From contig NC_092577.1 in NCBI RefSeq assembly GCF_037975245.1, forward strand, positions 36,138,898 to 36,202,897: 64,000 nt of DNA. Direction: 5' to 3'. How positions within the stretch are numbered: position 1 is the first letter of the stretch; every line of letters starts with the position of its first letter. The position numbers and the translations under genes are program-made. This DNA is from Apostichopus japonicus. Lineage: Eukaryota; Echinodermata; Holothuroidea; Aspidochirotida; Stichopodidae. Under the pieces are notes generated by a model that was not told the origin of the DNA, made no database searches, and saw nothing but the letters and a program-made list of their open reading frames with translations. This document shows, one piece after another, positions 13,811-57,450 of this stretch.

Positions 13811-13975
13811 TATGTATGTATGTATGTATGTATGTATGTATGTATGTATGTATGTATGTATGTATGTATGTATGTATGTATGTATGTATGTATGTATGTA
13901 TGTATGTATGTATGTATGTATGTATGTATGTATGTATGTATGTATGTATGTATGTATGTATGTATGTATGTATAT
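13811..13975. repeat. TATG tetranucleotide microsatellite
   Basis: About 40 near-perfect TATG units abut the 3' end of the minus-strand SINE at 13976-14203. Read from the SINE strand it is a CATA tail. The period-4 frames open on both strands here are artefacts. Confidence 0.97.
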
Positions 13976-14203: not shown

Positions 14204-15315
14204 TTGTAGTCGGCATCTTTTCACAGTGTCATATGTAGAAGATTAACACGGAGACATAGTATATGTAATGTATTGAATTCTGCGCACAAAATGAAATACT
14301 CCTCCCTATCAGAACAGCCAAGCTTTATTTAAGTATAGCAAAAATGACAAGGTGTTAAAGTCAAAGACTAAGCACTACCTTAGTTATAAAACAAGTTTTT
14401 TAGTTTAATACAGTTATATTCCGACCAGAATGATACACAATTAATTGCTTAATGTTGAATAAAGGTTAATTAACTGTGGTTACTAACTATAGTTTCTAAT
14501 TACATTATGAAATAATAAAATGTAAAGGATAAACTGTCAAGACTTGCTTAAGTGACGTAATGTAAATATGTGAAATCAGTCATAAATTATGTCATTAATA
14601 TAACATTACATTCAACTTCAAATAATTCTTCAGAAAACATTCATCGAATTGTAGATTGTTGTTAGTTGAGAATATACAACGATAATACTTCAACGACTTA
14701 AAAAACAACTTATATTGTTTCTTTGAATAAAAACAACATAATCAGCAAAGGAGAAACAGAAGAAACAATTACTATGGTAATATAAGTATACAATACATGT
14801 TGTACATAGTAAAACAATTTGTTACAGTTTGTACCTTATCTACCACTTGAGCTACTTTGCGTTAATTTTATTCAAAACTACAAGCTAGGAATAATATATT
14901 TGCCTGATGAAGGTATATTTATTTTCAAAATTGTGTAACAAATTGAAACTTATGCCGTTTTTGTGTATAATTTTAAATATTGAATAATAATATTTATTTA
15001 ATAGCCATTTTTGAAACAAAGTAAACGTTTTAATATACTTTTTTTCTTTAAATGATACATTTACTATGTTTCCATGATATTTTGAATTCTTGTCTTTATC
15101 AAAATCCAAGTTTACCATTGAACTGCGTAAATATAGTTATATTCCGATATTCAATAAAAGTGATATACAATTATTTCTTAGGTTGAATAAAGGTTAATTG
15201 ACTTTGGTTACTAAGTATAGTTTCTAATTACATGAATATATAATAATATGTAATGAAAAACATTCAAAACTTTGCCTTAGTGACGTAATGTATCTATTTA
15301 AAATGTGAAATCAGT

Positions 15316-17241
15316 CAGTGGCGGAGATTTCTTGTCAGAAGTTGGGGGGTTGCATGCCATTGATGAAATAAAAAGTCATAACTGCTGGCTCACTATCTAA
15401 GTGGAGCGCCACCATAAGTTGGCGCGAAGTGCACAAGAATTTTTTGGCAAATATTGCCTCCCAGTTTGCAGTAAATGGCACTGCCCAGGCCTTAAAAAGC
15501 TGCATTTAACCAGGGGCGTATGCAGGATTTTCTAATCCGGGGGGCGCGTATTACTATCTAAGCGGAGCGCCACCATTGGTTGGCGCGCAGCGTACAAGCA
15601 AATTTCTGGTTTTGGTACCCCCAGATCACCGGAAATGGCACTTCTCGGGCTTGAAACTGACCAACCATATGTACACTTTTGCCTGAGAACCAAGTTTTTT
15701 CCAAATACTTTTTTCTCATCTAACCTTTTTGAAGATTGTCACAGTCACACATCACGTTCGACTTCATCACATATCCTGTGGATCATTGCTTTTGTAGGTG
15801 ATTCTTCATCGCGGCCCACAATATCCGTCAGCCCCACTGTTCAGAATTTGAAAATTCACAATTCTCGTGAATAAATTCACTACAAAACATACCCATAATG
15901 TTGCACAAAATATCATCTATGGACAACCGATATAGAAAAACCTCCTTCAAACCCTAACAGACGGGTCAAAATTGCACGAGTATGATGATGTATGATGAAG
16001 AATGTTGGTTAGGGAATTTTCGAAAATTCAGACGGCTACTAAAAAATGTCGTTGAAGGAAATAAAAATATACCAGATATTTCCGAAACCGAACTCTACAC
16101 ACATCGACAGTTTTGAGCATGGGCGCAGATCAGTCTTGGATAATGGTGGGGACGCGTGTCTGTTCTATGACACTATCTAAGCGGAGCGCGACCATGGGTT
16201 CGCGCGTAGCGTGTGATTTTTTTGGGCAAATATACCTCCCAGATCGCCGGAAATAACACTTCCCAGACCTAATGATGCTCCTAAACCTCTTTAAGTTTTA
16301 GATCTCATGGCTTAGAAATTTAGTTTGGAGAAATACATGGGCGTTTGCAGAAAGAAAATCAGGGACAAATAATCCAAGTAGACTTATGTATATACGATGG
16401 GTCTGGGGTCCTCTCCCAGAAAACAAATATAGACTGCCGCAAATGCGATTTCCGTCCTATATTTAACAACTGTGGATAAAATACAATAACATGAGAACTG
16501 CTGCATGTCATTTGCACAATGCTGGATCAAACTGCGCCAAAGTTCAATACAGGGGAACTTGAAATGCAGCTATTGGTCAAGACAAATTGGTGGGGCCACG
16601 GTATATCATGTCCCCACTACTGAAAAAGTTGGTGGGGACGCGTCCCGCTGTCCTCACCAGGATCTGCGCCCATGGCTTGGAGACTGTTTATCGTGGAACG
16701 CCATTTTCATGCTCACTGATATGATGTGATATCTGCTGTTTGCTTTACAAATTCGAATAATTTTGTCACTGTTCCTCTTTCTCTTCCCGTTTTCTTGCCG
16801 TATTTTCTACTCCATCCTTTTCTCTCTTTTTTCTTTTCCTTCCTTCACCTCGTTGAAGTTGGCAAGTGTATACAGTTCCAAAGCTATTCAACAGCAACAA
16901 AACGTTATTTTGTGTATGTCTGTTGTGGGGTGAAGTTAGCGCTATGAGCTACAAGTTCCAATGCGCAAGGTGGGGGAAAGGGGCTAGAAATAATGTGTGG
17001 GTCAATTCTAACTCGGTTTTCGGTCGTTAATTGTTGATGTAGCCTACCAGGTAAAAGGTTGAACTGACTTTAACAATTTCAAATTAATAATTTGATTTAT
17101 TATGCCATTTGGAGCACAAAACATAGGCTATAACAGAATATTACTGGCAAAAACTAGGGGGGTTGATTGTGTGGGCCAACCCCCCCTCTTCAAAAAGTGG
17201 GGGGGTTAAAACCCCCCCAACCCCCTGTTTCTCCGCCACTG
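15316..17241. mobile_element. 1.9-kb hAT-like element with perfect 8-bp target duplication
   Basis: The ends are CAGTGGCGGAG and CTCCGCCACTG, a perfect 11-bp inverted repeat. The flanks are identical aaatcagt copies at 15308-15315 and 17242-17249. The paralogous segment has the uninterrupted site with one aaatcagt at 41836-41843. Inside are three copies of the agcggagcgccaccat/ggcgcg module (about 15400, 15560, 16180) and a nested element at 16118-16674. I see no transposase frame, so it is a non-autonomous composite. Confidence 0.85.
16118..16674. mobile_element. Nested hAT-like element
   Basis: The inverted ends are CATGGGCGCAGATC at the left and GATCTGCGCCCATG at the right, with an extended match around ggtggggacgcg. 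Flanks gttttgag (16110-16117) and gcttggag (16675-16682) agree at 6 of 8 positions, consistent with an aged 8-bp duplication. It sits inside the 15316-17241 element. Confidence 0.65.
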
Positions 17242-20159: not shown

Positions 20160-22968
20160 CTAGATACTGTTCAGTAAGATGGTAGTTCCTCCCATAAACT
20201 TTCTAAGGCATCTTCGTCTGAAACTGAAACCCATTCTAGTGGGAGCTCTACTGGCTGTGTACAACTGCGCAAAATCATTATTGAAATGTTGCAATACTCA
20301 CTTCCAGTAAATTATTGGAGTATCCCCTCTAATTGGGGTAATATCCCAAAAAGGATAATCCTCCGCATACTCCTTGTAAGGTCTATACTTCTTTGGTGGC
20401 CCTATGCGGCATCGATATTTAGTGTCGGAGGCTACTAACACTGTGCATGGAGCAGATACCAGTTCAAGTGACTCTTTTCATGATATCCTGCTACACCCTG
20501 TGAGTAATGGAAAATAGCTGCGTGTTTATGTTCACTTCTGATTTGCAAATGGCAGGGTACTTTACAGAAAGGCAAACTTCCTTACACGTTCCTAAATGAT
20601 CTAAAATATCAAGTGCCACGTCCCGCATTTTTGAATAAAGTTGAGATACTACTGATGGATCACTTAGTTTGTCTAAGTCCCATCCTTTGGTAATATCTGT
20701 TTTCAAGTGCGAATTGAACATGCTGTCCAACATCTTGGTAAATTCAGTAATGTCGCTTAGATTGAAATTCTCAACAGAAAATTGTATATACTTTCCATTC
20801 TCTGAAATGTTTTTCAGAAATGTATTTTCCCATTCCCTAAATTTTGTTGTATGTTCCCCTCCACGTTCCTTCATTTCATGTTTAGTCTTACGTAATGCAG
20901 ATTTAGCACAGCTCAGTATTTCATTGACTTTTGGATCTATTAAGTCTTTAACCCAATTTTGAGACCGTGTTGTTATTTCAGTTAGAACCTTTTCGCTCAA
21001 CCAATTGCTAACGAATTTATCATGGGCCTCTATAAAATCATAATACAACTTTGGATCTTTTTTAAGACACAACTCTTCTAAAATTCTGCCAAGCATCCTT
21101 TGCTTATCATTATAACAATGGTCGTCTCTCATATGTGCCAGGGGTTTTACATTGAAGGCATTTAAGGTTACATTTTGCAAAACAGTCACACCCTCATATT
21201 ATGATCGCTTTGCAGCCGCTCCACTCTTAATGGCTTCATCAACATAGCCTTTAAATTTGTGTTTTAAACAGTCCTTCTCATTTTCAAACATTCTTTGCAA
21301 TGAATTGTGACTTTTATACTTTCGTTGGCAATCTTTGCAAACTGTACAAACCTCGTTCTGAACTTCACGAAGGGTACTAACCAAAGTGTCACTATTGACT
21401 TTGCTATTCATTAATACATTGTACACTTCTTGTAAAATAGTATCTACGCGACTTTCTTGAGACGGTATAACTTTTGCGTCATTTGTAAGATAACTTCTAT
21501 GACGATTTACAATTCCAAAAACTACATTTTGAACTTTGTCCAGTCCGTCCTTAGATCCCGAAAAACGTCGTCCAACCCAATAAGCAAATTCCCGGTTTTT
21601 ATTGTCAGGTCGCATCTCGTCAGTGTAAGCTTTGCTATGTTCTGTACCAAGCATTATTTTTCTGAGACTGTTATCACACGCCTGCTCGATATATCCATCA
21701 GTAATTATAAATTTGTTGAAGTTTATTTCAAGCTGTTTGATTTTTTTCCCCAGAATACGTCAAATTGTCTATCCACTTCCACATGGTTTTCCTTCCAATA
21801 GGACAGAGCTTGTTTATCCTTTAATTGCTTTGCGATTTTTTCAGCCTCAAATTTCAGTTCGTCTTTTGCCTCTCTGATGAAATTTGGTAGACCTTCTTTA
21901 TCGGCCTCTTTTTTGTAATTGTATCTCTCTGTTTTCTCTGATGCTTCTTTTAATAACTTTACCAATTTCGTCTGTTTCATTTATGATACTCTGATGACGT
22001 CTTTTCACCTCCTCTTCGTTTGAATGCTCCTTTACGTATTCATTTATTTTATCCTTTATACCTTGGCATTTATTAGTTATTTCAATATCCAATCTCTTGA
22101 AAAAGTCATCCTTTTCCGTAGCATTCGTGATATTTATACCATTGGTAAGTTCCCATTGAAATATCTCAGTTCTCATTTTCCCAATAAGTTTATTATGCTC
22201 TAGTCGGAATCTTTGGTAACTGAGGGCATCTTCTGAGTTCACTGGCTCCAATACATCTTCCAACCTCCTAACAAAATTTGCCATTGTAAACTTAAGAGGG
22301 ATTCTTCTTTCAAATTCTTTCAATAATTCTTCTTTTCTGCCGTACATTGGCAGATACCATTGGGCTTCTACTGATCCACTACAATGGAAAACGTACCCTC
22401 TTTCATCTTCATAAGACAAACAATATTGAAACGTTCCATTACCTTGAGCTCTACCAATGACAATATTTAATACAGATGTTTTGGAGATTGGAAAATCACG
22501 ATATCTTATGAATGCAGTGGTAAATACAGGCTCACTTACCATACGTTTTTCTGGTACAAGAAATGTTTCATTTTGTTTCAATTTTTTTACAAAACGACCT
22601 ACTGCCGAAGCGGGCAATCGTTTTGCGTCATTTTTAACCCCAGGTAATAAGACTGGCACGGCAAGTTGACAAGATGCAAATTTCTGTAGCAAATGCTGTC
22701 TTAAATGATTATCGGAACAGTGAAATATTGCATGTATGAAATCTCTTACACTTCCTTCTATGTGAAGATTCTCTTTCCATGTAATCCTACTATCTAGTGA
22801 GGTTACCTTACTGATAAGAGAAAAGGTAAATCTTCTGTTTTAATTTGTGAATCGTCGCTTGGGATAAGCCGTACCCCTTTGGCCGCTTTCAGGGTTAACT
22901 TCCGTGGGAAGTAGTTCTTTAGACCAACCTCTTCCAAGTATTCCAGAAAATAGTCTTCAGTTCTTTAT
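20160..22968 (-). pseudogene. VLIG-family GTPase pseudogene lacking the G domain
   Basis: Paralogue of the gene at 43717-48581. Reading minus strand, similarity starts at the same splice acceptor (22968, after GATAG) and ends at the counterpart of the stop codon near 20160. The frame is broken: it stops where the Lys/Glu-rich tract should be (near 22840), and there are shifts near 21900-21980, 21655-21730 and 21190-21200, with another before the C-terminus near 20490. Open pieces include 21898-22692 (264 residues), 21199-21654 and 20491-21189. The most striking change is a clean internal deletion of about 1.9 kb: LLKEFERRIPLKFT joins sequence before the G domain directly to sequence after it, in frame. 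P-loop and DTEG motifs are therefore absent. Confidence 0.85.
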
Positions 22969-23353: not shown

Positions 23354-23475
23354 CTCGTCGATATTTTGCCGAGAGGTCTTGCTATAGTAACAGCGTCTTT
23401 CACATCATCTTCATCCGGGTTCTCTGTCTCGATTATGCTTTCGTTCCTCCTTGCTTTCTCTTCATACACGTCCTC
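23354..23475 (-). pseudogene. Single relic of the cassette exon found ten times at 52-57 kb
   Basis: On the minus strand the block begins after TTTAAAG and ends in GACGAG before GTACAT. It keeps the words EDV, RRNES and ETENPDEDDVKD of the repeated cassette but is 122 nt instead of 120. The two extra bases fall in the last third, so the ending reads out of frame (ARPLGKIST instead of TSQQNIDK) and the exon is no longer phase 0. The internal Met is Ile here. It belongs to the pseudogene copy of the locus and is the best outgroup for the array. Confidence 0.8.
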
Positions 23476-30785: not shown

Positions 30786-31195
30786 AAATAATAATAATAA
30801 TAACTAAGATTTATGATGCGCTAATTATAAACAAAATAGTTGTCAAAAGCGCCGTACATTATAGTTTGAATAGAAAGAAGCAAAAGCAATAATGCAACAA
30901 TGAAAAATAATTACAAATCAAATTGAAAAAAAATGTTTAGCATAGAGGTAGGCTATAAGTTTAGATTTGAAAAGTGATTTAATAGGTATACATTTTAAAT
31001 GGTTTGAGAGGGAATTCCACAATTTGGGACCAGAAACTGATAAAGCACGGTTTGCATAGGTAACCCCATTGGTTCTAGGTACTAGGAGGGTAATGAATTT
31101 TGATTGACGGGTGACACGCTTGTATTGTTTTACTAGAGAAGTTCGGTAAGGTATTTTGGAGATAACTTGTTATAAATACAATTGTGGATTAAAAT
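30786..31195. mobile_element. Insertion splitting repeat copy 2; dispersed-element-like
   Basis: After an AATAAT run the sequence changes (agatttatgatgcgctaa ... gggaattccacaatttggga ... gcataggtaaccccattgg) and the family sequence resumes at about 31195. The wording resembles a short interspersed element that I recall as widespread in marine invertebrate genomes, but I cannot confirm the family and no target duplication is obvious. Confidence 0.4.
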
Positions 31196-31700
31196 AAGGA
31201 CACGGCAAGTCAGATTCGAGAAGTTTGAGCAAGTATAAATGAATAAGGAATACGAATTGTCAGACATTGATTCGTGCTGTCGTTTAACAGTTAAAATTAT
31301 GAATATTTTTGAATTTTGATCGATGTGAAGAGTAAAGTAAATGTCAAACTTACCTGTAAGGCTTTTATCGCTGAGCGAGATCTTCCATTGCAGATACAGC
31401 CAGGATGTAAAAGCTATGTGCAGTTGTCTGATTCGAACAGTCCAATGGCAAATTCTTCGGCAAGTGGATTCTTATATGAGGATCCTTATCTGTGGTATTT
31501 TAATTGGTTGCAGTGAGTTCCGAACCCTATATGGGCAGTTCCTTTGTCCAACACAACTTAAACTGCATGAATATTCATATGTTATTCGCTATGGCAATAT
31601 TGTGTTTATTCAAAGTGGTATACATAACCTTATTAGGATAACGATGCTGTAATTGGTTTCTACATATGCGATCTGCAAATCATATCAGTTGCCAACAAAA
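31196..31700. repeat. Dispersed repeat family, copy 2 right part
   Basis: It matches 28820-29330 (cagattcgagaagtttgagc, ttccattgcagatacagcc, aacttaaactgcatgaata). It carries a different set of small changes from copy 1, and no frame is shared through the whole copy. Confidence 0.75.
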
Positions 31701-33746: not shown

Positions 33747-36148
33747 GTAAGTTTAAGGTCGTAGTTTAGGAAACCCATATTAAGCTGCACTGTAAAAACT
33801 TTATCTTCTTGATAAATCCATTAGTAGCATGGACTCAACACAGTCATTGTGATTAAGGGAGGTCAACTAGAACCTCATGAGATTTTGTACCGAGTAATAA
33901 ATATGGACGGTATGCAATCATTTTTCCTATCATTAAATTGCGAGATGTTTGAGTTTTAAGAAGTGACAATGCGTATTGAGTGTGCTTAAACTATACAAAT
34001 GATGACGTAACAACAAATATTGAGGAAGCGTGAAAGAAAGGGGAATCACTTTGGTTTGCTGAGTTGTGAAACATTGTAGAAGTACATTGCCGGTCTGCAG
34101 AATACAGCAAAATTGTCTTCTTTACAGAAGCGGAAGCCACTCAACTATTGACATGTTTATTTTGATATGATTTCTTCATAAATGTGGGAGACACAATGTC
34201 AACTCTGTCTTGATGACGTCATTGTCATGTTTCCTTTTGATCTTTACCGCAGGTGGCAAGTCGACAGTTTATGAGGGCGGTATTCGTATTCCGTTGATAG
34301 TAAGTTGGCCTGGACAAATTCCCGCAGGTAGCGTATCGCGTCACACGGTCAGTTCCATGGACATTTTCCCAACCATCCTTGACGTCGTAGGTGGGCCTCT
34401 ACCGACAGGTATCACTTACGATGGGAGCTCACTCAAATCCATCTTATACGAAGAATTTCTGATGAGTGAAAAATGGGGGTTTGAAATTCAGTCCCAGACG
34501 GCACCTGCCCATCCGGAGGGGTTGTTTTTCTATTCTGGAGAAATATTGACAGCCATGAGGTAATCTCGTGCACGTTTTATTCCTCGTTTCCAACTTTTCA
34601 TTAATTCTTGTTTTGTTTAGTTTTACTATCTTTTGTTATCTTCTGTTTCGTTTAATTGTATTGCTTTGGGTCACGTTTCGTCTCGTACATCCCCCCCCCC
34701 CTCCCCATTTTAGTTTTGCTTGCTTTGAAGTTAGGTCTTCTTTGCTTCAATTCCTGTTCTTTCTATTTTCTTCTTCTTAGTTTGATTTAGATCTACTTTG
34801 TTTCATTTCCTCTTTTTTTGTTAATTTCCTTTAATTCTTCATTTTGCTCGTTTTGCTCGTTTTTTTTTAAGACCTACTGTCACTAATTGTTTCATTCGTT
34901 TCGTTTCGTTTCGACTACATCGAGCACCCTTAAAACGTCGGAGCATTATTTGAATGCACTTGAGAAGGGCGGGGAAGGGCTTTTGCCGCCTGTTTAGAAA
35001 AGTCCTCTGTTAAACTTGATAATTGATGACTTTGATGGGTCAGTAAGAATACAAATAAACATTTTACAGCTATAGGAATACTTCCTTTAAGAACTTGTTA
35101 TACGTTCTAATAACCTGCGGAATGATACGCGTATGGCCAATTAATGCATTGTCGTGCTTCTATGGTATGTGATACAATTATATAACTAAGAAGCAAAAAG
35201 AACCTCATTCCCGGCCCATGCATGTCAAAACCAAACCTCATTAACGATTTAGATATATTAATTAATATCCATTCTGATTTATAAATCATTCATATGTGTT
35301 ACTGCGGTTATTGTTATTTTTAGTTCAGTGGAAAATATTGTAAGCAGCGCTGCATGTCTTTTCTAAGTTTTCTATCAAATTTTAAATGCACCAAACGTTT
35401 CTTTTTCCTAAGAACTTTTTAGAATACATTACTCAACCAATATTAATGCATTAAAACTTGATTAAATTTATAAACGTAATTTAATTGAGAGAAAGAAAGG
35501 AGGGGCGATGGAGAGTAGGTACATTTTAGAGCGCATATTGTTGGTTAGAACGACATGAAAAGTATGAGAAATATTATAACTTAGCTCACTACAAGGATTT
35601 ATATCGCAATTGCACGCAAATATGGAAATGTAGTGACGTCTTGAAATATATTATGGGAAAAATTGATTTCTCCCCACCCCGAACCCAACCCCTGTTTGTC
35701 TTTGTCTTGTAGGTTTGATGGCTACAAAGTTCATCTCCGGCTGCAACCTCAACCTCTAACTACCCGGGTAGGATTTGGCGAAGAATGCACAGAGGGCGCC
35801 CCATTAATGGAATATTACGCAGGGTGTAGAGAACCTACTTGTTTTACAACTCAACAAGTTCCAAATGTTTATCTGATTGACGCAGATGTCGGAGAAGGAT
35901 TTCGATTCACCAATTATTCAGAGATTGCCGTTTTCGACCCCGGGTTTGAGTGCAAGATGATGCAGTTGAATTTTGTCCACGTCAGTTCGATTGTGAGAGG
36001 ACCGGATCTGCTCTCATCAACCAATCAAATTGCTGAATTACAACCCTGCTGCACATTACCTGGCTGCCCATGCGCATCATCTGGTGTAAGAGCTAGTGTC
36101 GGAAATCCTGCGTATGTCATTGTCTGCTCTGTGGCTATTCGTCTGTGA
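33598..36148 (+). CDS. Arylsulfatase A-like gene, last three exons (5' part missing)
   Basis: Sulfatases hydrolyse sulfate esters, usually in lysosomes or outside the cell. Exons are inferred at 33598-33746, 34253-34559 and 35713-36148, joined in phases 1 and 2 with consensus splice sites. Exon 1 has LVIFLSDNGP, which in the family carries metal-binding Asp and Asn, and ends in GPLRG. Exon 2 opens GGKSTVYEGGIRIPLIVSWP, with the active-site Lys in GKS/T, then the SMDIFPTILDVVG helix and LFFYSGE. Exon 3 ends ELQPCCTLPGCPC, like the Cys-rich C-terminus of arylsulfatase A, then TGA. The N-terminal half with the formylglycine motif (C-x-P-S-R) is not visible anywhere upstream, so this is either a truncated copy or a gene whose 5' exons I missed. 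Confidence 0.85.
34253..34559 (+). CDS. Arylsulfatase A-like gene, middle exon
   Basis: The acceptor is TTTACCGCAG and the donor ATGAG|GTAATC. It encodes about 102 residues of the sulfatase core with the conserved Lys and the EGG(I/V)R motif. Confidence 0.85.
35713..36148 (+). CDS. Arylsulfatase A-like gene, terminal exon
   Basis: The acceptor TTTGTCTTGTAG is followed by GTTTGATGG, which continues the phase-2 codon as Arg. It contains several cysteines (EECTEG, AGCREPTCF, PCC...CPC) likely to form disulfides. A GTAAGA donor-like word at about 36090 could instead splice on, but no convincing further exon follows. Confidence 0.75.
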
Positions 36149-43716: not shown

Positions 43717-46700
43717 CTATTTACTGGTCAGATGGTACTCCTCCCTTAAACTTTTTAGTGCATCTTGCTCTGAAACTGTACCCCATTCATTTGGGAGCTC
43801 TGCTGGCTTTAAACCGTACAACTTCGCAAAATCATTATTGAAAGTTTGCAATACCCACTTCCAGTACAGTATTGGAGTTTTCCCTGTAATTGGGGTAATG
43901 TCCCAAGAAGGATAATCCTCGGCATAGTCCTTGTAAGGTCTATACTCCTCTGGTGGCCCTATGCTGCATCGATATTTCGTGTCGGAGGCTACTAACATTG
44001 TGCATGGCTCTGATACCAGTTTAAGTGACCCTTTGTAATGACGTCCTGCTACACCCTGTGAGTAATGAAAGATAGCTTTGTGTGTATGTTCACCTCTGAT
44101 TTGCAAATGGCAGGGTACATTACAGAAAGGACAAACTTCCTTACACGTTCCTAAATGATCCAAGATATCAAATGCCACATCCCGCATTTTTGAGTAAAGC
44201 TGAGATGCTACTGACGGATCACTTAGTTTGTCTAAGTTCCATTGTTTAGTAATATCTCTTTTCAATTGCGAATTGAACATGCTGTCCAACATCTTGGTAA
44301 ATTCAGCAATGTCGCTTAGATTGAAATTCTCAACAGAAAACTTTATATCCATTCCATACTCTGTCATGTACTCGCTTTTCAGAAATGTATTTGCCCATTC
44401 CCGAAATGTTGTTGTTTGTTTACCTTCACGTTCCGTCAATTCATGTTTAGTCTTACGTAATGCAGATTGAACATAATCAAGTATTTCACTGATTTTTGTA
44501 TATATTACGTCTGTAACCCAATATTGAGACCGTGTTGTAATTTCAGTTAGAACCTTTTGGCTCAACCAATCGCTAACGAATGTATCATTGTCCTTTATAA
44601 AATCATGATACAATTTTGGCTCTTTCTTAAGACAGAGCTCTTCTAAAATTCTGCCAAGCATCCTCTGCTTATCATTATAGCAATCGTCTTTCCTCATTTG
44701 TTCTAAGAGTTTTACATTGAAGGCATTTAAAGTTACATTTCGCAAAACTGTCAAACACTCAGTATATGATCGCTTTACAGCCGCTCCACTCTTAATGGTT
44801 TCATCAACATAGCCTTTAAATTCGTCTTTTAAACATTCCTTCTCATTTTCAAACATTCTTTGCAATGAATTGTGACTTTCATACTGTCGTTGACAATCTT
44901 TGCAAACTGTACAAACCTCGTTCTGAACTTCACGAAGGTTACTAACCAAAGTTTCACTATTGACTTTGCTATCCGTTAATGCATTGTACACTTCTAGTAA
45001 AATAGTATCTACGCGACTTTCTTGAAACGGTATAACTTTCGCGTTATTTCTAAGATCCCTTCTATGATGATTTACAATTCCAAAAACTTCAATTTGAACT
45101 TTGTCCTTTAAGTCCTTAAATCTCAAAGTATTTATGCCAAACCAATGAGCAAAGTATTTCGGAATCCCAAATTTCGGCAAATGCATCTTCTCCCTCAATT
45201 TCTTGTCATCTTTCATCTCGTCAGTGTAAGCTTTGCTATATTCTGTACCAAGCATTAGTTTTCTAAGACTGTTATCACACGCCTGCTCGATATATCCCTC
45301 AGTAATTATAAATTTGTTGAAGTTTATTTCAAGCTGTTTGATTTTTTTATCCCAAAGTATGTCAAATTGTCTATCCAATTCCTCATGTTTGTCCTTCCAA
45401 TAGTCAGTGCCTTTTGTGTCCTTTAATTGCTTTGCGGTTTTTTTAGCCTCACATTTCAGTTCTTCTTTTGCCTCTCTGGTGAAATTTGGCAATCCTTTTA
45501 TATCGGCCTCATTTTGTAATTGTATCTCTTTTTTTTCTTTGATGCCTCTTTCAATATCTTTACCAATTCCGATTGTCTCATTTTTGATACTCTCTTGACG
45601 TCTTTTTACCTCCTCTTCGTCTGAATGCTCCTCTACGTATTTATCTATTTTCTTATTTACATTTTCGCATTTTTCAGTTATTTTAATCTCCAGCCTCGTG
45701 TAAAAACTTTTTCTTGTAGCATTCGTGACATTTCCACCATTGCTAAGTTCCCATTGAAATATCTCAGTTCTCATTTTTCCAATAAGTTTATTATGCTCTA
45801 GTCGGAATCTTTGGTTACTGAGGGCATCAAAACTATTTTGGAAATTAAAGACGAAGTCTTCTGATTTCACTGCATTCCATACATCCTTCAATCTTTGAAC
45901 AAATTTTGCCATTGTAAACTGACGTTGGATTACCGGTTGACTTGCTTTTGGTTTGAAAATGGCTTCCTTTAAAGCGTGAATTTTCTTACTTACCAGTGTA
46001 AACTGAGGAGAGATTACCGATTGATTTACTTTTGGTTTGAAAATGGCTTCCTTTAGGGCGTGAATTTTATCACTGTAGCCAGGATTTGGAGGAGACATTA
46101 AACCCATCCACAAGCATGGGAAAAACTGCAAGTCATCCTCTTCAGCTAGAGGAAATACATCTGAAAAATCTTGAATGTGTTCTACTCTTTCCTCAGCAGC
46201 AGCAATACGAGTGGCTTTGTTGAGAGCATCCTTTATTTTAGCCATGTTAGTTTTATTGTTAGCGGCAGCTGCTATGTCGCTCACTCTCTGCTGAATAATT
46301 CTGCAATTAGAAACCAAATCGACTTTCTTCATTCTTATCAAAGCATGGACAGCTATTTGCAATATGCCAATCATATCTGGGCCAATAGTTTCTTGACCGA
46401 TATTCAATAGGGTAAGGTCCCCTATGCACATGACAAGTGTCGCTATCGAATTATCAAATGTGTGGTCGTTGAGAACAGTTCGATCTGGAGAATGCAATCC
46501 TTCAGTATCAATAATCAGAAGATACTGAAAACCAAGTTGTTCATGAAATGCTTCGTTTACTTCTAACAATTGTAGGTATAACCCCCTTGTGCATCTACCA
46601 GCACGTACCGGAAACCTGACCCCAAACATACTATTTAAGAACGTTGACTTTCCACTACTCTGGATACCAATTATAGACAAAACAAATATTCGTGGGTTAT

Positions 46701-48581
46701 TAAGCGTTTTATCGAGATTCTTTAAGACGCCTGATATCCAATCAATGGGAATGTAAACAGTTTCCCCATCTAAAAGTTCCAATGGATATCCTGCAAGAAG
46801 TAATTTTGATGCCATGTTAACCAGCAATTTATTTCGTTCGTGAGCATTTGTATCTCCCAGGTTTGCTTCATACCATTGTCCTAACTCACGAATAAAGTGT
46901 TCGCAACTAATGTTTTTCGCATTAACTTGTTGGCTTTCTTTTAGGAGCTGCTTTTGCAAATCTTCTATTTCATTTTGCAGTTTCATGCGTTCACTGGGTG
47001 AAACGTGCTTCAGGTCAGACTTTCGTTTTTGCAGGTCAGTATTCAACTCGTGGATTCTCTTAAGTAATTGAGGAAATTCATTGGTGGTCATTTGTTCGAT
47101 ATGTGTTTGAAAAAAGGACATGAAATAATGCAAAAGATCATTTTCGTCAAGCATAACTGTTTTCAAGTTATTAAAAAAAACTTTCATTTTGGCAGATAAA
47201 CCCTTTTCTCTTTGCTTTTTCCTCATATCACGTTTAGTTTTATCCTTTGCTTCAAACTGATGATCGACAGTTTGTTCCCCACGACACAAACGTTTTCTAT
47301 CAGCTTCGACCCATTTACCCCATTCGACTTGCAATTGTAAATATGATTTTTTCACTTCCTCTATGGATTCAGTGTTCGGAAAGGTGGATTGCATCAGTTG
47401 TTTTGCTTTGTAATAGGAATCATATTCCTGATCCACGGTTACTTCATTAAAGCAAAACTTTTGCCAGTCTTCAATTGAATGGTAATCCTCACGCTTTGTG
47501 AAATTGCAGTATTGCATAATCTTCTCACAAATGATTTTTGCAAGGTCTGTTGCATTACGTTCCAAGCCAAAATCAATACTATCATCGTTTGCATCGATGT
47601 TTAGTGTATTACGCTCACTGTTGAGCTGTTGCTTACGTGTTTGCCTGCCCTTCTTTTTTTTTTGTACCATCAAATGTATCACGAAAACATTTTTGAATCT
47701 TTTCTTTATGTCATCAATTGCTGTCTTGTAGCATTCCAATTTGTCTTTATCTACAAAGAGGAATACAGCATTAGCTGCTTTGCACGTAAACTCACTTTCG
47801 GTAGTAAATTCTGTCGCATCACCTCTCAGATTCAACAATAACGTAACTTCTTTCAACAAATCCTCTTTTCTGCCGTACATTGGCAGATACCATTGGGCTT
47901 CTACTGATCCACAACAATGGAAAACGTTCTCTTTTTCATCATCATAAGACATAAAATATTGAAACGTTCCATTACCTTGAGCTCTACCAATGACATTATT
48001 TAATACGGACGATTTGGAGATTGGAATATCACCAAATCTTATGAATGCAGTGGTAAATACAGGCTCACTTACCATACGTTTCTCTGGAGCAAGAGATGTT
48101 TCATTTTCTTTCCATTTTTTTACAACACGACTTAATGCCCAAGTAAGCAGCTCTGGTTTCGCGGCATCTCTTACCCCAGGTAATAAGACTGGCACGGCAA
48201 GTTGACAAGATGCAAATTTCTCCAGCAAATGTTGTCTTAAATGATTATCGGAACAATGAAGAATTGCATATATGAAATCTCTTACACTACCTTCTATGTG
48301 AAGATTCTCTTTCCATGTAACCCTACTGTCTAGTGAGGTTAGCTTACTGATAAACAGAAAAGGTAAATCTTTTCTCTTCTCTTCTTTTTCCTCTTCTTTT
48401 TCCTCTTTTTCTTCCTTTTTTTCTTCCCCTTTTTCTTCCTCCTTTTTTCCCTCTTTTTTTGAATCGTCGCTTGGGATCAGCCGTACCTCTGTGGCCGCTT
48501 TCAGGGTGAGCTTCCGTAGGAAATAGTCCTTTAGACCAACCTCTTCCAAGTATTCCAGAAAATCTTCTTCAGTTTCTTTAT
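43717..48581 (-). CDS. Very large interferon-inducible GTPase (VLIG/GVIN family), main exon
   Basis: This family comprises giant dynamin-related immune GTPases, cytosolic and often encoded by one huge exon; here about 1,620 residues, shorter than vertebrate VLIGs (about 2,400). Numbering from the TTG at 48549: LEEVGLKDYF and RKLTL form the conserved N-terminal motif. A Lys/Glu-rich tract follows (about 28-61). CQLAVPVLLPG (about 117) and the PMYGRKEDLL region come next. The G domain has P-loop GIQSSGKST (about 627-635), CTRG switch I and DTEG (about 681-684). FPCLWMG and WNAVKSEDFVFNF are VLIG signatures. The C-terminus has CPFCNVPC (about 1471) and DYPSWDI. Coding starts at the acceptor at 48581 (phase 1), since the frame stays open upstream to it. 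No disruption seen, so probably functional. Confidence 0.93.
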
Positions 48582-50619
48582 CTATCGAATATAAGAGTAT
48601 ATACTTAAATTGATGTCAAAGCCAAACTGAAGTCGTAAAAATTTGAAACGATTCATGTACAATTCACAATTGTAATGTGTGTCTCTATCTGGAAATATAC
48701 CAAAATTGTAAGTACCTCGTATATAAACGAACTAATACGATGTTGCTAGTCAGGAATAACTTTCCGACTAAGTATTGCTACATTTATTCTCGGAATATTT
48801 CTTGCAGCAGCGAGAAACGAGTGTAGGTGATGGTGAATGTCGCTGTCAACCAACTTTATTTCCAATGAGTACATGCACCCGCAATAATGGCATTTCGAAG
48901 CGTGAGAGTTAAGCAAAGACAACATGCTTACTCTCACAGTAACCATTACTGCTATCGTTATATGATATGTTCATTCAAACATTTGCCTATAAAGAACAAC
49001 TTGACAACTCTTGACAACAGCTAACTGGATATCATTTTTCTCTCATGCTGATTGTTTGTGAGTTACTAAGTCGAACAGTTTGTAAAACGATACAATTATT
49101 GGAGAAGGACCCTGAACGTTTTTCAAAATACGGGATCTGCATGATCATACATTGATCAAAGAAGTTCTTTACAGTTTACACGGTCTTTGTGGCAAGAATA
49201 AACTCTAATTAATAGCATATCAGTGACAAACGACATTGGAAATGTTTTACACACACATTACATGTAGTTTGCGGAAACTATGCACTGAGCAAAGAAATAT
49301 CGATATGATCCCGATAACGTAATACACACATGTATATAGACTATTTTCCACAAGTTTCTTTAACGAACATGCGAAAAAGAAAGCTACAAGCAACTTCTCT
49401 AGATGAGTACAGGGAGACATGACAGAAATCAACAACAAACCTTATTATCTTATTACCGACAAGGGATGACAGGCAAAGAGAGCAGTAGAAACATACCATA
49501 ATATACTGAATGGACTAATTCGAAACTGAACGTGTATAGCAAAAAACAACTTCGACGTTTGATGATGCCACCATGCAAAACGTCGATCTAACGATGTGAT
49601 GAACAGAAAAGTTTACACTCTTCCCGGCATCTACAAATTATCTGAAGGGGTATTCTCGAGAAGTTTAATACTGGCTCTTTATAGTTGCTCACCAGAAGGA
49701 GTATAATGATGAAGCTCATGAGGAGGAGAGGGAAATTATTTCAACACTGAACAAAATGAGACCTTAAAGAGACATATTGCTAATAATACTTCCGCTTGTA
49801 ATTTATTCTGGTACTCCCATGGTTCGATTTAAGCTGAATAATTTATTGCCTACAAAGGATTAGCTATCTTAATTCATTTGGAATTCTAGTAACCTTAACT
49901 ACTCTTTTAATTTGTTTAAAAGTTCCATTTGTATCATCCTTTGTGAATGCTGTTCTACAATTTTTAATTTCTATATTACTGTTTTATGAGCCATCTGGAA
50001 AGCATTTCTAACTAGATTAGTTTTCTTATACTGTTTCTCGTTTTCTTATTTTTAATGGTTTAGTTTTTATACATTTAATAGCCTCTAATTATCATCCTTC
50101 TACCGGCCTTTGTGCTTGAGTGTTTAGGCAGTTCTGCTTTATATCTGTCGGTTCAATTTGTGGTAATTAAAGTTGAAACAAGATTACACAAGGTCCCCCT
50201 AAAAACAATTTAAAAAATCGACTTATCATCTGGCATAATGGTGTGGAACGACTACACTGTTGATGGAGCAATATAGCAGGTTTATCCTGCAAAAAATCAG
50301 TAGATAAAGCTAAACTGTTAGATTGCCTTGCGAAAAACGTATTCAATTACACTGATTTAACAAGTGTAATTCAATTGAAAACTTGTTTATGTTCTCAAAG
50401 AGACTTTGTCTAAGTCAGTCAAAGCTCTAAGCATTAGGTTTCTTTTTGAACCCTTCACTACATTTAGTGATTTTGCGTACATTTTGTCTGAGCTTCTATG
50501 TACGGATTGCTGATAGCTTTCTCCAAAGATCTTTTCCTGGTATGTGAGAGAGAGAAGCTAAGGGGGGGGGGGGGGGTTATTACAAGTAGCTGTAGCCTAT
50601 ATGTCGTGCATTGCCTTAC
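48582..50619 (-). other. Intron between the small exon and the main VLIG exon
   Basis: Inferred from the GTAAGG donor at 50619 and the TTCGATAG acceptor at 48582. It includes a run of about 14 G at 50561-50576. No other coding sequence is supported. Confidence 0.6.
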
Positions 50620-50671
50620 CGGGAGATTCTTGTTCTGACTCACTGGTGTTGTTCTCTGTATTGCCGGCCAT
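50620..50671 (-). CDS. Small upstream exon of the VLIG gene, possible start exon
   Basis: On the minus strand a strong pyrimidine tract (CTTTTTCCTCTTTAACC) and ATATCAG precede ATGGCCGG, and the 52-nt exon ends CCCG before GTAAGG. It encodes MAGNTENNTSESEQESP plus one base. That base (G) plus the AT opening the main exon makes Asp, so the phase-1 junction is correct without adjustment. The ATG sits directly at the exon start: it can be an initiator or, if spliced after a phase-0 cassette, an internal Met. The peptide is Ser/Glu/Asn-rich and looks disordered. No counterpart was found in the left pseudogene copy. Confidence 0.7.
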
Positions 50672-52006: not shown

Positions 52007-52130
52007 CTCATCGATATTTTGCTGGGAAGTCGTGCCAGTAGCAGCGTCTTACACGTCAGCTCATCTCTGTCTTCCTTATTCTTTCGTTTCGTTTTAATTA
52101 TATTAATCATTTTATTTGAAGTAACAAGTT
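52007..52130 (-). pseudogene. Degenerate terminal cassette exon copy
   Basis: It keeps the 3' half (ACTTCCCAGCAAAATATCGA, then GAG|GTACAT) but diverges upstream, where the conserved Asp-rich segment is lost, and has an in-frame TAA just before GACGCTGCT. It lies closest to the GTPase gene. Confidence 0.7.
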
Positions 52131-52357
52131 GAGGTATGGACTTGGTGTCGGGTTAATTATATATGGTGAACTTCATGATTTCAAAATAAACATCGAATGT
52201 ATGACAGTATCAGAAAAATCTATTTATGTATCTGTCTATTTATCAGGTAAAACGGACCCACACTTTAGTTATCGCAGAACTGGTTTAATACCCGAGGTTA
52301 TAGTGCACCATTGTTTTATTCACTTGATCCTATACTACCGAGGTAATAAAAATGTAC

Positions 52358-52477
52358 CTTATCGATATTTTGCTGGGAAGTCGTGCTAGTAGCAGTTTCT
52401 TTCACATCATCTTCATCCGGGTTCTCTGTTTCCATTATGGTTTCGTTTCTCCCTTCTTTCTTTCTATGTACGTCCTC
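52358..52477 (-). CDS. Cassette exon copy 1 (nearest intact copy)
   Basis: 120 nt, phase 0 at both ends. Acceptor ATTATAG|GAGGAC, donor GATAAG|GTACAT. The 40-residue peptide starts EDVHRKKEGRNE, has an internal Met and NPDEDDVKETAT, and ends SQQNIDK. Its phase-0 donor fits exon 50620-50671. No known domain is recognised. The composition is acidic and polar, suggesting a disordered segment. Confidence 0.6.
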
Positions 52478-52910
52478 CTATAATAATCAACACAGCAGAA
52501 TGACTCAATTTAATTCTTCCGAAATGAACTCCCATATTAATTATATTAATCATTGCATTTGAACATATTAATCATTTGAACTGACAATATAAATGGTTTC
52601 GCTATCATTTTTATATCAGTTTATAAACCGTTTGAAGGAAATAATTTGAATTAACAAATAAAGTTAAAGTATATGGACTTAGTGTCGGGCCCAATTTTGC
52701 GTTGATCATAATAATTTGAAAATATACGCCAAAAGTAAGACGGTATCAAAAAAATATAAACTATAATGTATCTTTCTGTTTGTTTTTCTTTCTATCAGGA
52801 AAAAACGGACCCACGCTTTAATTATCGCAGAACTGGTTTAGTACCCGAGGTTATAGTGCACCATTGTTTTATTCACTTGATCCGATACTACCGAGGTAAT
52901 AAAAATGTAC

Positions 52911-53030
52911 CTTATCGATATTTTGCTGGGAAGTCGTGCTAGTAGCAGTTTCTTTCACATCATCTTCATCCGGGTTCTTTGTTTCCATTATGGTTTCGTT
53001 TCTCCCTTCTTTCTTTCTGTGTACGTCCTC
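52911..53030 (-). CDS. Cassette exon copy 2
   Basis: Same 120-nt phase-0 structure and splice sites. It differs by Glu to Lys in METKNPDED, and keeps VKETAT as in copy 1. Confidence 0.6.
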
Positions 53031-53458
53031 CTATAATAATCAACACAGCAGAATGACTCAAAATAATTCTTCCGAAATAAACTCCAATATTAATTATATT
53101 AATCATTGCATTTGAACATATTAATCATTTGAACTGACAATATTAATGGTTTCGCTATCATTTTTATATCAGTTTATAAACCATTTGAAGGAGACAATTG
53201 AAACAAGTAAAGTTAAAGTATATGGACTTAGTGTCGGGCCCAATTTTGTGTTGATCATAATGATTTGAAAATATACGCCAAAAGTATACGGTATAAAAAA
53301 AAATTATACTATAATGTATCTTTCTGTTTGTCTTTCTTTCTATCAGGAAAAAACGGACCCACGCTTTAATTATCGCAGAACTGGTTTAATACCCGAGGTT
53401 ATAGTGCACCATTGTTTTATTCACTTGATCCGATACTACCGAGGTAATAAAAATGTAC

Positions 53459-53578
53459 CTTATCGATATTTTGCTGGGAAGTCGTGCTAGTAGCAGTGTC
53501 TTTCACATCATCTTCATCCGGGTTCTCTGTTTCCATTATGGTTTCGTTTCTCTCTTCTTTCCTTCTATGTACGTCCTC
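53459..53578 (-). CDS. Cassette exon copy 3
   Basis: Same structure. The N-terminal part reads VHRRKEERNE rather than VHRKKEGRNE, and the middle reads VKDTAT. Confidence 0.6.
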
Positions 53579-54011
53579 CTATAATAATCAACACAGCAGA
53601 ATGACTCAAATTAATTCTTCCGAAATGAACTCCAATATTAATTATATTAATCATTGCATTTGAACATATTAATCATTTGAACTGACAATATAAATGGTTT
53701 CGCTATCATTTTTATATCAGTTTATAAACCGTTTGAAGGAAATAATTTGAATTAACAAGTAAAGTTAAAGTATATGAACTTAGTGTCGGGCCCAATTTTG
53801 CGTTGATCATAATGATTTGAAAATATACGCCCAAAGTAAGACGGTATCAAAAAAATATATACTATAATGTATCTTTCTGTTTGTTTTTCTTTCTATCAGG
53901 AAAAAACGGACCCACGCTTTAATTATCGCAGAACTGGTTTAATACCCGAGGTTATAGTGCACCATTGTTTTATTCACTTGATCCGATACTACCGAGGTAA
54001 TAAAAATGTAC

Positions 54012-54131
54012 CTTATCGATATTTTGCTGGGAAGTCGTGCTAGTAGCAGCGTCTTTCACATCATCTTCATCCGGGTTCTCTGTTTCCATTATGGTTTCGT
54101 TTCTCCCTTCTTTCTTTCTGTGTACGTCCTC
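54012..54131 (-). CDS. Cassette exon copy 4
   Basis: Same structure, with VKDAAT in the middle, the commonest version among the copies. Confidence 0.6.
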
Positions 54132-54562
54132 CTATAATAATCAACACAGCAGAATGACTCAAAATAATTCTTCCGAAATGAACTCCAATATTTATTATAT
54201 TAATCACTGCATTTGAACATATTAATCATTTGAACTGACAATATAAATGGTTTCGCTATCATTTTTATATCAGTTTATAAACCATTTGAAGGAGACAATT
54301 GAAACAAGTAAAGTTAAAGTATATGGACTAAGTGTCGGGCCCAATTTTGTGTTGATCATAATGATTTGAAAATATACGCCAAAAGTATGACGGTATAAAA
54401 AAAAATTATACTATAATGTATCTTACTGTTTGTTTTTCTTTCTATCAGGAAAAAACGGACCCACGCTTTAATTATCGCAGAACTGGTTTAATACCCGAGG
54501 TTATAGTGCACCATTGTTTTATTCACAAGATCCTATATACTACAGAGGTAATAAAAATGTAC

Positions 54563-54682
54563 CTTATCGATATTTTGCTGGGAAGTCGTGCTAGTAGCAG
54601 CGTCTTTCACATCATCTTCATCCGGGTTCTCTGTTTCCATTATGGTTTCGTTTCTCCCTACTTTCTTTCTATGTACGTCCTC
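54563..54682 (-). CDS. Cassette exon copy 5
   Basis: Same structure. It has HRKKVGRNE (Glu to Val) and VKDAAT. The same Val variant occurs in copy 8, pointing to unit exchange within the array. Confidence 0.6.
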
Positions 54683-55115
54683 CTATAATAATCAACACAG
54701 CAGAATGACTCAAAATAATTCTTCCGAAATGAACTCCAATATTTATTATATTAATCACTGCATTTGAACATATTAATCATTTGAACTGACAATATAAATG
54801 GTTTCGCTATCATTTTTATATCAGTTTATAAACCGTTTGAAGGAAATAATTTGAATTAACAAGTAAAGTTAAAGTATATGGAGTTGGTGTCGGGCCCAAT
54901 TTTGTGTTGATCATATTGATTTGAAAATATACGCCCAAAGTAAGACGGTATCAAAAAAATATAAACTATAATGTATCTTTCTGTTTGTTTTTCTTTCTAT
55001 CAGGAAAAAACGGACCCACGCTTTAATTATCGCAGAACTGGTTTAATACCCGAGGTTATAGTGCACCATTGTTTTATTCACTTGATCCGATACTACAGAG
55101 GTAATAAAAATGTAC

Positions 55116-55235
55116 CTTATCGATATTTTGCTGGGAAGTCGTGCTAGTAGCAGCGTCTTTCACATCATCTTCATCCGGGTTCTCTGTTTCCATTATGGTT
55201 TCGTTTCTCCCTTCTTTCTTTCTGTGTACGTCCTC
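55116..55235 (-). CDS. Cassette exon copy 6
   Basis: Same 120-nt phase-0 structure and splice sites, with HRKKEGRNE and VKDAAT. Confidence 0.6.
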
Positions 55236-55670
55236 CTATAATAATCAACACAGCAGAATGACTCAAAATAATTCTTCCGAAATGAACTCCCATATTAATT
55301 ATATCAATCATTGCATTTGAACATATTAATCATTTGAACTGACAATATAAAAGGTTTCGCTATCATTTTTATATCAGTTTATAAACCGTTTGAAGGAAAT
55401 AATTTGAATTAACAAGTAAAGTTAAAGTATATGGACTAAGTGTCGGGCCCAATTTTGTGTTGATCATAATGATTTGAAAATTTACGCCAAAAGTATGACG
55501 GTATATAAAAAAAAATTATACTATAATGTATCTTACTGTTTGTTTTTCTTTCTATCAGGAAAAAACGGACCCACGCTTTAATTATCGCAGAACTGGTTTA
55601 ATACCCGAGGTTATAGTGCACCATTGTTTTATTCACTTGATCCGATACTACCGAGGTAATAAAAATGTAC

Positions 55671-55790
55671 CTTATCGATATTTTGCTGGGAAGTCGTGCT
55701 AGTAGCAGCGTCTTTCACATCATCTTCATCCGGGTTCTCTGTTTCCATTATGGTTTCGTTTCTCCCTTCTTTCTTTCTGTGTACGTCCTC
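55671..55790 (-). CDS. Cassette exon copy 7
   Basis: Same 120-nt phase-0 structure and splice sites, with HRKKEGRNE and VKDAAT. The unit is very close to that of copy 6. Confidence 0.6.
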
Positions 55791-56223
55791 CTATAATAAT
55801 CAACACAGCAGAATGACTCAAAATAATTCTTCCGAAATGAACTCCAATATTTATTATATTAATCACTGCATTTGAACATATTAATCATTTGAACTGACAA
55901 TATAAATGGTTTCGCTATCATTTTTATATCAGTTTATAAACCGTTTGAAGGAAATAATTTGAATTAACAAGTAAAGTTAAAGTATATGGAATTGGTGTCG
56001 GGCCCAATTTTGTGTTGATCATATTGATTTGAAAATATACGCCCAAAGTAAGACGGTATCAAAAAAATATAAACTATAATGTATCTTTCTGTTTGTTTTT
56101 CTTTCTATCAGGAAAAAACGGACCCACGCTTTAATTATCGCAGAACTGGTTTAATACCCGAGGTTATAGTGCACCATTGTTTTATTCACTTGATCCGATA
56201 CTACAGAGGTAATAAAAATGTAC

Positions 56224-56343
56224 CTTATCGATATTTTGCTGGGAAGTCGTGCTAGTAGCAGCGTCTTTCACATCATCTTCATCCGGGTTCTCTGTTTCCA
56301 TTATGGTTTCGTTTCTCCCTACTTTCTTTCTATGTACGTCCTC
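56224..56343 (-). CDS. Cassette exon copy 8
   Basis: Same structure, with the HRKKVGRNE variant shared with copy 5. Confidence 0.6.
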
Positions 56344-56776
56344 CTATAATAATCAACACAGCAGAATGACTCAAAATAATTCTTCCGAAATGAACTCCAA
56401 TATTTATTATATTAATCACTGCATTTGAACATATTAATCATTTGAACTGACAATATAAATGGTTTCGCTATCATTTTTATATCAGTTTATAAACCGTTTG
56501 AAGGAAATAATTTGAATTAACAAGTAAAGTTAAAGTATATGGAGTTGGTGTCGGGCCCAATTTTGTGTTGATCATAATGATTTGAAAATATACGCCAAAA
56601 GTATGACGGTATCAAAAAAATATATACTATAATGTATCTTACTGTTTGTTTTTCTTTCTATCAGGAAAAAACGGACCCACGCTTTAAATATCGCAGAACT
56701 GGTTTAATACCCGAGGTTATAGTGCACCATTGTTTTATTCACTTGATCCTATACTACCGAGGTAATAAAAATGTAC

Positions 56777-56896
56777 CTTATCGATATTTTGCTGGGAAGT
56801 CGTGCTAGTAGCAGCGTCTTTCACATCATCTTCATCCGGGTTCTCTGTTTCCATTATGGTTTCGTTTCTCCCTTCTTTCTTTCTACATACGTCCTC
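56777..56896 (-). CDS. Cassette exon copy 9
   Basis: Same structure. It starts EDVCRKKEGRNE, a His/Tyr to Cys change shared with copy 10, and the acceptor reads ATCATAG instead of ATTATAG. Confidence 0.6.
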
Positions 56897-57330
56897 CTAT
56901 GATAATCAACACAGCAGAATAACTCATTATTAATTCTTCCGAAATGAACTCCCATATTAATTATATTAATCATTGCATTTGAACATATTAATCATTTGAA
57001 TTGACAATATAAATGGTTTCGCTATCATTTTTATATCAGTTTATAAACCGTTTGAAGGAAATAATTTGAATTAACAAGTAAAGTTAAAGTATATGGACTT
57101 AGTGTCGGGCCCAATTTTATGTTGATCATAATGATTTGAAAATATACGCCAAACGTATGACGGTATCAAAAAAATATATACTATAATGTATCTTTCTGTT
57201 TGTCTTTCTTTCTATCAGGAAAAACGAACCCACGCTTTAATTATCGCAGAACTGGTTTAATACCCGAGGTTATGGTGCACCATTGTTTTATTCACTTGAT
57301 CCTATACTACAGTGGATAATAAAAATGTAC

Positions 57331-57450
57331 CTTATCGATATTTTGCTGGGAAGTCGTGCTAGTAGCAGCGTCTTTCACATCATCTTCATCCGGGTTCTCT
57401 GTTTCCATTATGGTTTCGTTTCTCCCTTCTTTCTTTCTACATACGTCCTC
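57331..57450 (-). CDS. Cassette exon copy 10 (farthest upstream)
   Basis: Same structure with EDVCRKKEGRNE. It is the first copy that a minus-strand transcript would meet. An upstream first exon is not identified. The internal ATG (codon 15) could start translation if a copy serves as first coding exon. Confidence 0.6.

Follow-up and report, generated by a model that had tools for sequence, protein, structure and literature searches.

Tandem candidate promoter-plus-first-exon units upstream of a URGCP/VLIG-type giant GTPase gene in the sea cucumber Apostichopus japonicus

The UGT1A locus carries an array of alternative first exons, which have promoters of their own and share the exons further downstream, and its first exons, like those of the protocadherins, are large and diverged. 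Of the clustered protocadherins of vertebrates, an excerpt of PMC4835542 states that alternative first exons with their own promoters feed shared downstream exons, and it reports for the shortened Dscam (sDscam) genes of chelicerates that tandem 5' cassettes, each with a promoter of its own, are spliced to a constant exon, to which downstream cassettes can be spliced as well. Tandem exon duplications with mutually exclusive splicing are also known (excerpt of PMC9013439). Here we describe an array of ten 120-nucleotide (nt) blocks upstream of a giant GTPase gene of Apostichopus japonicus, located in a 64,000-nt stretch (C17:36138898-36202897, the whole of which is referred to as the window), and we hold with moderate confidence that these are tandem promoter-plus-first-exon units feeding one constant exon and the GTPase exon. 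Promoter activity, start sites, splicing, the use of more than one unit and an effect on expression are what we infer from the DNA of this one genome (671.6 Mb in 35 contigs), within which all comparisons were made. The likeness to sDscam would lie in tandem 5' units leading to one constant exon, the unit promoters being putative here, and the difference in the unit being one short exon, with all units encoding almost the same 26 residues; unlike the first exons of the protocadherins and UGT1A, those in the window are near-identical, and their number varies between paralogs. With mutually exclusive tandem exons, as the excerpt of PMC9013439 presents them, the array has tandem in-phase copies of one exon in common, but each of its copies contains a start codon and is preceded by a promoter-like block, so that a choice among them would be made by promoter. 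A literature search for a first-exon or promoter array in VLIG genes gave none in the titles or the beginnings of the abstracts among the matches listed.

The ten intact blocks lie on the minus strand between positions 52358 and 57450, each preceded by AG and followed by GTACAT (10/10) and each with a phase-0 frame free of stops, at a spacing of 548-555 bp (a unit of about 553 bp), just as the original prediction for this stretch had described them; position 52007, however, from which it had the array start, belongs to a decayed eleventh copy (unit 0). Units 1-9 are 94.6-98.7% identical among themselves, and unit 10, the distal-most one, shares 85.0-87.9% identity with them. Real as it is and far beyond what chance would give, the array has a length that depends on the assembly; chance or a dispersed satellite as the full account of its origin is ruled out, with at least 40 exon and at least 42 unit matches, that is, all those listed genome-wide, lying at VLIG loci on contigs C17 and C4. 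It had also been predicted that the phase-0 end of the blocks fits a 52-nt exon (50620-50671), the phase-1 end of which fits the GTPase exon, and this is borne out by an open frame of 1664 amino acids (aa), into which 78 nt of a unit, the 52-nt exon and the giant exon join. At the predicted junction the AAG of a unit would be followed by ATGGCCGGC of the constant exon, and the predicted peptides would be METENPDEDDVK, besides those of the 40-aa block. The giant exon, of about 4.9 kb, lies in a stop-to-stop frame of 1632 codons at 43717-48615, and its GTPase and URGCP domains are, together with the giant open exon itself, what likens the gene to VLIG/GVIN/URGCP, both of them exceeding the Pfam cut-offs (PF25683, 310.6 bits with a cut-off of 55; PF25496, 172.4 bits with a cut-off of 27); judged by these domains, it is a URGCP/VLIG-type giant GTPase gene. 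A giant, mostly single-exon coding region is a feature of the VLIG/URGCP family, and the window gene shows it. An 84-nt tandem duplication (1.9 copies, 45909-46068) sits within the GTPase exon, the frame of which stays open.

Genome searches, the counts of which are lower bounds, found the 52-nt exon with its upstream flank at at least 14 places, 12 of them on C17 (35.93-36.52 Mb) and two on C4, and a 15th, more diverged copy of the constant exon lies at the locus L057. The 120-nt block was found at at least 40 places, namely, 26 array units, four decayed proximal copies and 10 single copies, an 11th single copy (L051) coming from the search with the unit. The 26 units belong to five arrays (10 in the window, 8 in L044, 3 in L045, 3 in L057 and 2 in L046), and the decayed proximal copies are at four of these loci (the window, L044, L045 and L046). 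Ten of the 11 single copies are situated 0.8-3.1 kb upstream of a constant exon, and because single relatives of the exon occupy this position at ten other genes, one unit per gene is, as far as these loci indicate, the usual state. The eleventh, in the window itself, precedes a VLIG copy at 20491-22839 (minus strand), which is broken into several frames, with the URGCP domain in one piece, and at which the exon-plus-flank search found no constant exon. In the 5 kb upstream of each of three VLIG genes of the 34-Mb cluster on C17, the first exon has no more than weak matches, about 20 nt long. By open-frame lengths, from which the gene bodies beyond the window were judged, the GTPase frame looks complete at four of the five array loci (all but L044) and at three of the 11 single-copy loci (L052, L055 and L054, the last having an open frame of 1595 aa and one TAA in one aligned piece; L047 is ambiguous, and the others look broken or truncated), a comparison that is suggestive only.

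The coding part of the block would be its last 78 nt, in which an in-frame ATG in a strong context opens 26 codons in all up to the donor. All 26 array units keep this ATG with its strong context, the 26 open codons and the GTAC donor, with no indel within the 78 nt, and 25 of them are 120 nt long, open and in phase 0 on both sides. Elsewhere, the first exon is intact from ATG to donor in 6 of the 11 copies (L048, L049, L050, L052, L055 and L056), the non-intact ones having a stop (L047), no donor (L051) or no ATG (L053, L054 and the window pseudogene copy). The distance from the AG to the start is 42 nt in 25/26 array units, in L048 and in the window pseudogene copy, 41 nt in L045_03 and both C4 copies, 23 nt in L047, L049, L050, L051, L052 and L054, and 25 nt in L053; 19 nt are thus absent before the ATG in seven single-copy paralogs, probably by one event shared by descent, and L053 has 2 nt more. 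Among the ten non-array copies that can be measured (all but the donorless L051), the length from AG to donor is a multiple of three in one (L048, 99 nt), and that from start to donor in nine (78 nt in eight, 57 nt in L048, where 21 nt are deleted in frame), with the window pseudogene copy, at 80 nt, as the sole exception. About four frame-breaking events therefore fall before the ATG (19 nt, 1 nt in C4, 1 nt in L045_03 and 2 nt in L053), and one in-frame event (L048) and one frame-breaking event (the window pseudogene copy) after it, the number of independent events being small, as indels shared by descent do not count separately. Since frame-breaking indels precede the ATG while the start-to-donor part keeps its frame, this distribution suggests that translation starts at the ATG of the block and that the 42 nt before it are leader or promoter.

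The homology between C4 and C17 begins about 53-60 nt upstream of the supposed acceptor and runs through the exon into the intron, so that the shared module would consist of a short upstream block, the exon and the start of the intron. In this region TTCGGAAGAA is present in 25/26 units and 6/11 other copies, and what we take to be a TATA-like element in 26/26 and 11/11, starting about 50 nt before the ATG in the arrays and 31 nt before it in the short form (as counted on the alignment); an element that is presumably IRF-like, AAACGAAA, is found near the ATG in 25/26 units and 4/11 others, and another, presumably AP-1-like, is also seen. Over the 26 units, the block from -60 to +42 is less variable than the flanks (p 3e-5). 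What was amplified would then be a unit of about 553 bp in which a promoter core and a 5' leader, both short, precede a first coding exon with a phase-0 donor; transcription could start from any unit, the donor of which would be spliced to the constant 52-nt exon and hence to the giant GTPase exon, and the units downstream of the starting one would be removed with the intron. All ten units in the window have, as this would need, a donor (GTACAT, phase 0) predicted to be compatible with the one constant exon. Isoform diversity through different domains is not what was found, the units differing at 6 of 78 sites over 26 copies, and, since the 26 residues encoded hardly differ between units, what would probably be affected is the dose, timing or regulation of expression, not protein variety.

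Variation along the unit was compared over all 26 units and over 21 of them (without the five terminal or truncated ones, window_10, L044_08, L045_03, L057_03 and L057_01). With 26 units, the variable sites amount to 6/78 in the coding part, 23/102 in the -60 to +42 block and 163/362 in the flanks (coding part vs flanks, Fisher 3e-11), and the parsimony steps per site to 0.20 in the 78 nt plus GT, 0.53 in the block and 0.74 in the flanks; with 21 units, the sites are 6/78, 20/102 and 80/362 (coding part vs flanks, p 0.003). Neutral simulation on the flank tree, which leaves out conversion and indels, kept all units intact in 2/3000 runs for the 26 units, 80/3000 for the 21 and 771/3000 for window units 1-9, for which the coding contrast is marginal (p 0.06). 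Groups of units are marked by variants at codons 4 (E/K), 13 (D/E) and 14 (A/T). These figures bear directly on a rival account that is possible, if rather doubtful, namely, that a promoter with its first exon was duplicated passively, with use confined to one copy, which is probably that at the distal end or the most proximal intact one, while the others are passengers kept alike by conversion and unequal crossing-over. Turnover alone would give the identity seen among units 1-9, neutral decay is not rejected within those nine, the distal-most unit keeps an upstream flank of the single-copy type, and a proximal copy has been allowed to decay at four loci; the retention of ATG, frame and donor by all 26 units, so seldom reproduced in the neutral runs for 26 or 21 units, argues against passengers, as does a coding variation well below that of the flanks in both sets, although conversion from one used unit could mimic 26 intact units.

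As to the history of the array, the distal-most units of the window, L044, L045 and L057 cluster together (FastTree local support 1.000), with the distal unit of L046 outside; unit 10 retains an upstream flank like that of the single-copy paralogs, the decayed unit 0 is followed by intron sequence like theirs, and the window and L057 units have in common, in the intron downstream, a filler of about 70 nt that is lacking in the single copies. On our reading, a single promoter-exon unit was duplicated in tandem once, long ago, the result was passed on as the genes duplicated, and internal units were later gained and lost; the differing copy numbers of the paralogs (10, 8, 3, 3 and 2) are such as unequal crossing-over would give. 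The L057 array appears to have a history different from that of the gene behind it, a much diverged paralog, with transfer by recombination or conversion, because the exons of its three units match window unit 5 with 97-99% identity, whereas the constant exon there is 70-72% identical (271 nt downstream, intron) and the GTPase 71% in its first part and 46% in its second; the homology of the array ends 14 nt past the last donor.

A number of findings count against reading the array as promoter-plus-first-exon units. The AP-1-like TGA[CG]TCA is retained incompletely (19/26 units, 6/11 others), and all the motif patterns, the TATA-like one included, were written after the sequences had been seen, their counts carrying no statistical test. 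The -60 to +42 block is no less variable than the flanks over the 21 units (p 0.68) or window units 1-9 (p 0.73; 0.175 steps per site vs 0.150 in the flanks). Five of the six coding differences among array units change an amino acid and one is silent, so what is conserved is sequence and frame, which does not prove selection on the peptide; conversion could also account for the low variation in the 78 nt, and, when C4 is compared with two single-copy paralogs on C17, identity is lower in the coding part (77-79%) than in the adjoining intron (80-86%). The constant exon has an ATG of its own at 15/15 copies seen, because of which translation may start there with the 26 aa being dispensable, and L054, a paralog with a long open GTPase frame, no longer has the upstream ATG. 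Finally, the array AGs of the window score 5.1-5.3 as acceptors vs 4.4 for that of the window constant exon (by a rough matrix, not trained on this genome, with the L046 array units left out), making the AG before the block a plausible acceptor by sequence, and inclusion of downstream units could occur.

Such inclusion is what the original prediction had proposed: an upstream first exon would be spliced into one or several of the 120-nt blocks as internal cassettes, which would make the acidic repeat at the N-terminus variable or amount to choosing one of the blocks. That the blocks look like exons of the 5' end of the GTPase gene, fitting the 52-nt exon in phase 0, has held up, and the choice of one of ten survives as well, but internal cassettes with a variable acidic repeat no longer lead, given the ATG in 26/26 units, the indels before it in relatives and the homology running well upstream of the AG, and are, in our view, unlikely. 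The 120-nt length, open frame and phase 0 on both sides of 25/26 units do fit with cassettes; so do the acceptors, the AG being TAG in 24/26 array units and AAG, a weaker acceptor, in the ten non-array copies scored. The constant-exon acceptor, however, beats the array AGs at L044 (6.9 vs at most 5.3) and L045 (9.0 vs at most 5.1), and, since the order is reversed in the window, splice-site strength does not settle the matter. Symmetry is weak evidence, because, of 5048 sampled AG..GT pairs lying 90-150 nt apart in the window, 220 (4.4%) combine symmetry with an open phase-0 frame by chance, and ten copies that arose by duplication do not count as separate tests; a symmetric open exon would result from any of three different AGs upstream of the ATG of the block, and across the homologues, a symmetric AG-to-GT stretch was found in 25/26 array units but only in 1/10 measurable non-array copies. 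A strong-context ATG inside every unit is, moreover, not what internal cassettes would lead one to expect, and the locus showed no upstream exon in common with the C4 paralogs (an exon restricted to C17 was not searched for): the homology stops at -53, and the stretches beyond match scattered positions, as repeats would.

The units might also serve twice, both as promoters with first exons and, from AG/GAGGAC to the donor, as in-frame 40-residue cassettes read through from distal starts, which we regard as quite improbable and keep in mind because the excerpt of PMC4835542 reports downstream cassettes splicing to the constant exon. Were it true, the GTPases would form a ladder, with from one to ten N-terminal acidic repeats depending on the promoter that fires, and recombination could bring the whole module into related genes. 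Hardly any credence is due to the blocks not being exons at all, with translation from the ATG of the 52-nt exon, transcription starting elsewhere and the repeat a local minisatellite, for, while the ATG directly after the AG at all 15 constant-exon copies seen and the loss of the upstream ATG in one paralog with a long open GTPase frame would suit this, CAG precedes the constant exon at 15/15, which makes an upstream exon likely, the best conserved upstream candidate seen is the block with its phase-0 donor, its coding part is conserved and the repeat matches listed are confined to VLIG loci. A retrocopy with the spliced junction was sought with a 216-nt joined query, and none of the best 40 of 68 candidates extended across the junction of the first exon and the constant exon; a junction pattern gave 7 matches, each with 2 mismatches, vs 3 for the reversed control. 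The one of these seven that was read, C17:30773644, is an unrelated satellite.

Table 1. Features of the array, the downstream gene and the single relative (window positions)
Feature	Coordinates	Strand	Remarks
Unit 10 (distal-most first-exon block)	57331..57450	-	ATG to donor 57331-57408
Unit 9 first-exon block	56777..56896	-	ATG to donor 56777-56854
Unit 8 first-exon block	56224..56343	-	ATG to donor 56224-56301
Unit 7 first-exon block	55671..55790	-	ATG to donor 55671-55748
Unit 6 first-exon block	55116..55235	-	ATG to donor 55116-55193
Conserved upstream block, unit 5 as example; putative core promoter	54683..54742	-	TTCGGAAGAA, AP-1-like TGAGTCA, TATA-like TATTATAG
Unit 5 first-exon block	54563..54682	-	ATG to donor 54563-54640; METENPDEDDVKDAATSTTSQQNIDK
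Unit 4 first-exon block	54012..54131	-	ATG to donor 54012-54089
Unit 3 first-exon block	53459..53578	-	ATG to donor 53459-53536
Unit 2 first-exon block	52911..53030	-	ATG to donor 52911-52988
Unit 1 (most proximal intact first-exon block)	52358..52477	-	ATG to donor 52358-52435
Unit 0 (eleventh, decayed copy)	52007..52126	-	without AG, without ATG, stops present
Constant exon 2, 52 nt, phase 0 to 1, MAGNTENNTSESEQESP	50620..50671	-	AG before, GTAAGG after
Giant exon 3, URGCP/VLIG-type GTPase (PF25683, PF25496)	43717..48581	-	first base 48581, open to stop at 43717
Single relative of the first-exon block	23358..23475	-	ATG lost, frame broken (80 nt start-to-donor)

Elsewhere in the window, seven blocks at 487-5286, mostly set about 650 bp from one another and each made up of a 239-240-bp unit in about two copies, form a nested tandem repeat, a perfect TGTA repeat of about 41 copies occupies 13809-13973, and open frames on the plus strand at 34171-36148 look sulfatase-like by eye. 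The COX1 gene of the mitochondrial contig has AAA at sites where Asn is the usual residue and ATA where Ile is, in keeping with an echinoderm-type code. On another contig of the assembly, C29, four COX1 fragments with TGA codons lie at 14745-16086 and another at 30842-31219; a full COX1 stands at the start of contig C35, and the C29 fragments are perhaps a nuclear copy or a second mitochondrial contig.

Human GVIN1 is, according to an excerpt of PMC11974893, an interferon-gamma-inducible giant GTPase acting against an intracellular bacterium, and an excerpt of PMC4519954 tables a Gvin1-like transcript as 'Down' in sea cucumber coelomocytes after Vibrio challenge, so an immune function of the window GTPase is plausible by analogy. 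Known first-exon arrays yield protein variety; in this one, if it is indeed composed of promoter-plus-first-exon units, near-identical units have been amplified, and their number varies between neighbouring immune-type GTPase genes. Should the units prove active, these genes would constitute a natural copy-number series for asking whether a repeated promoter raises or tunes the expression of a defence gene, and would exemplify the movement of a promoter module among the members of a gene family.

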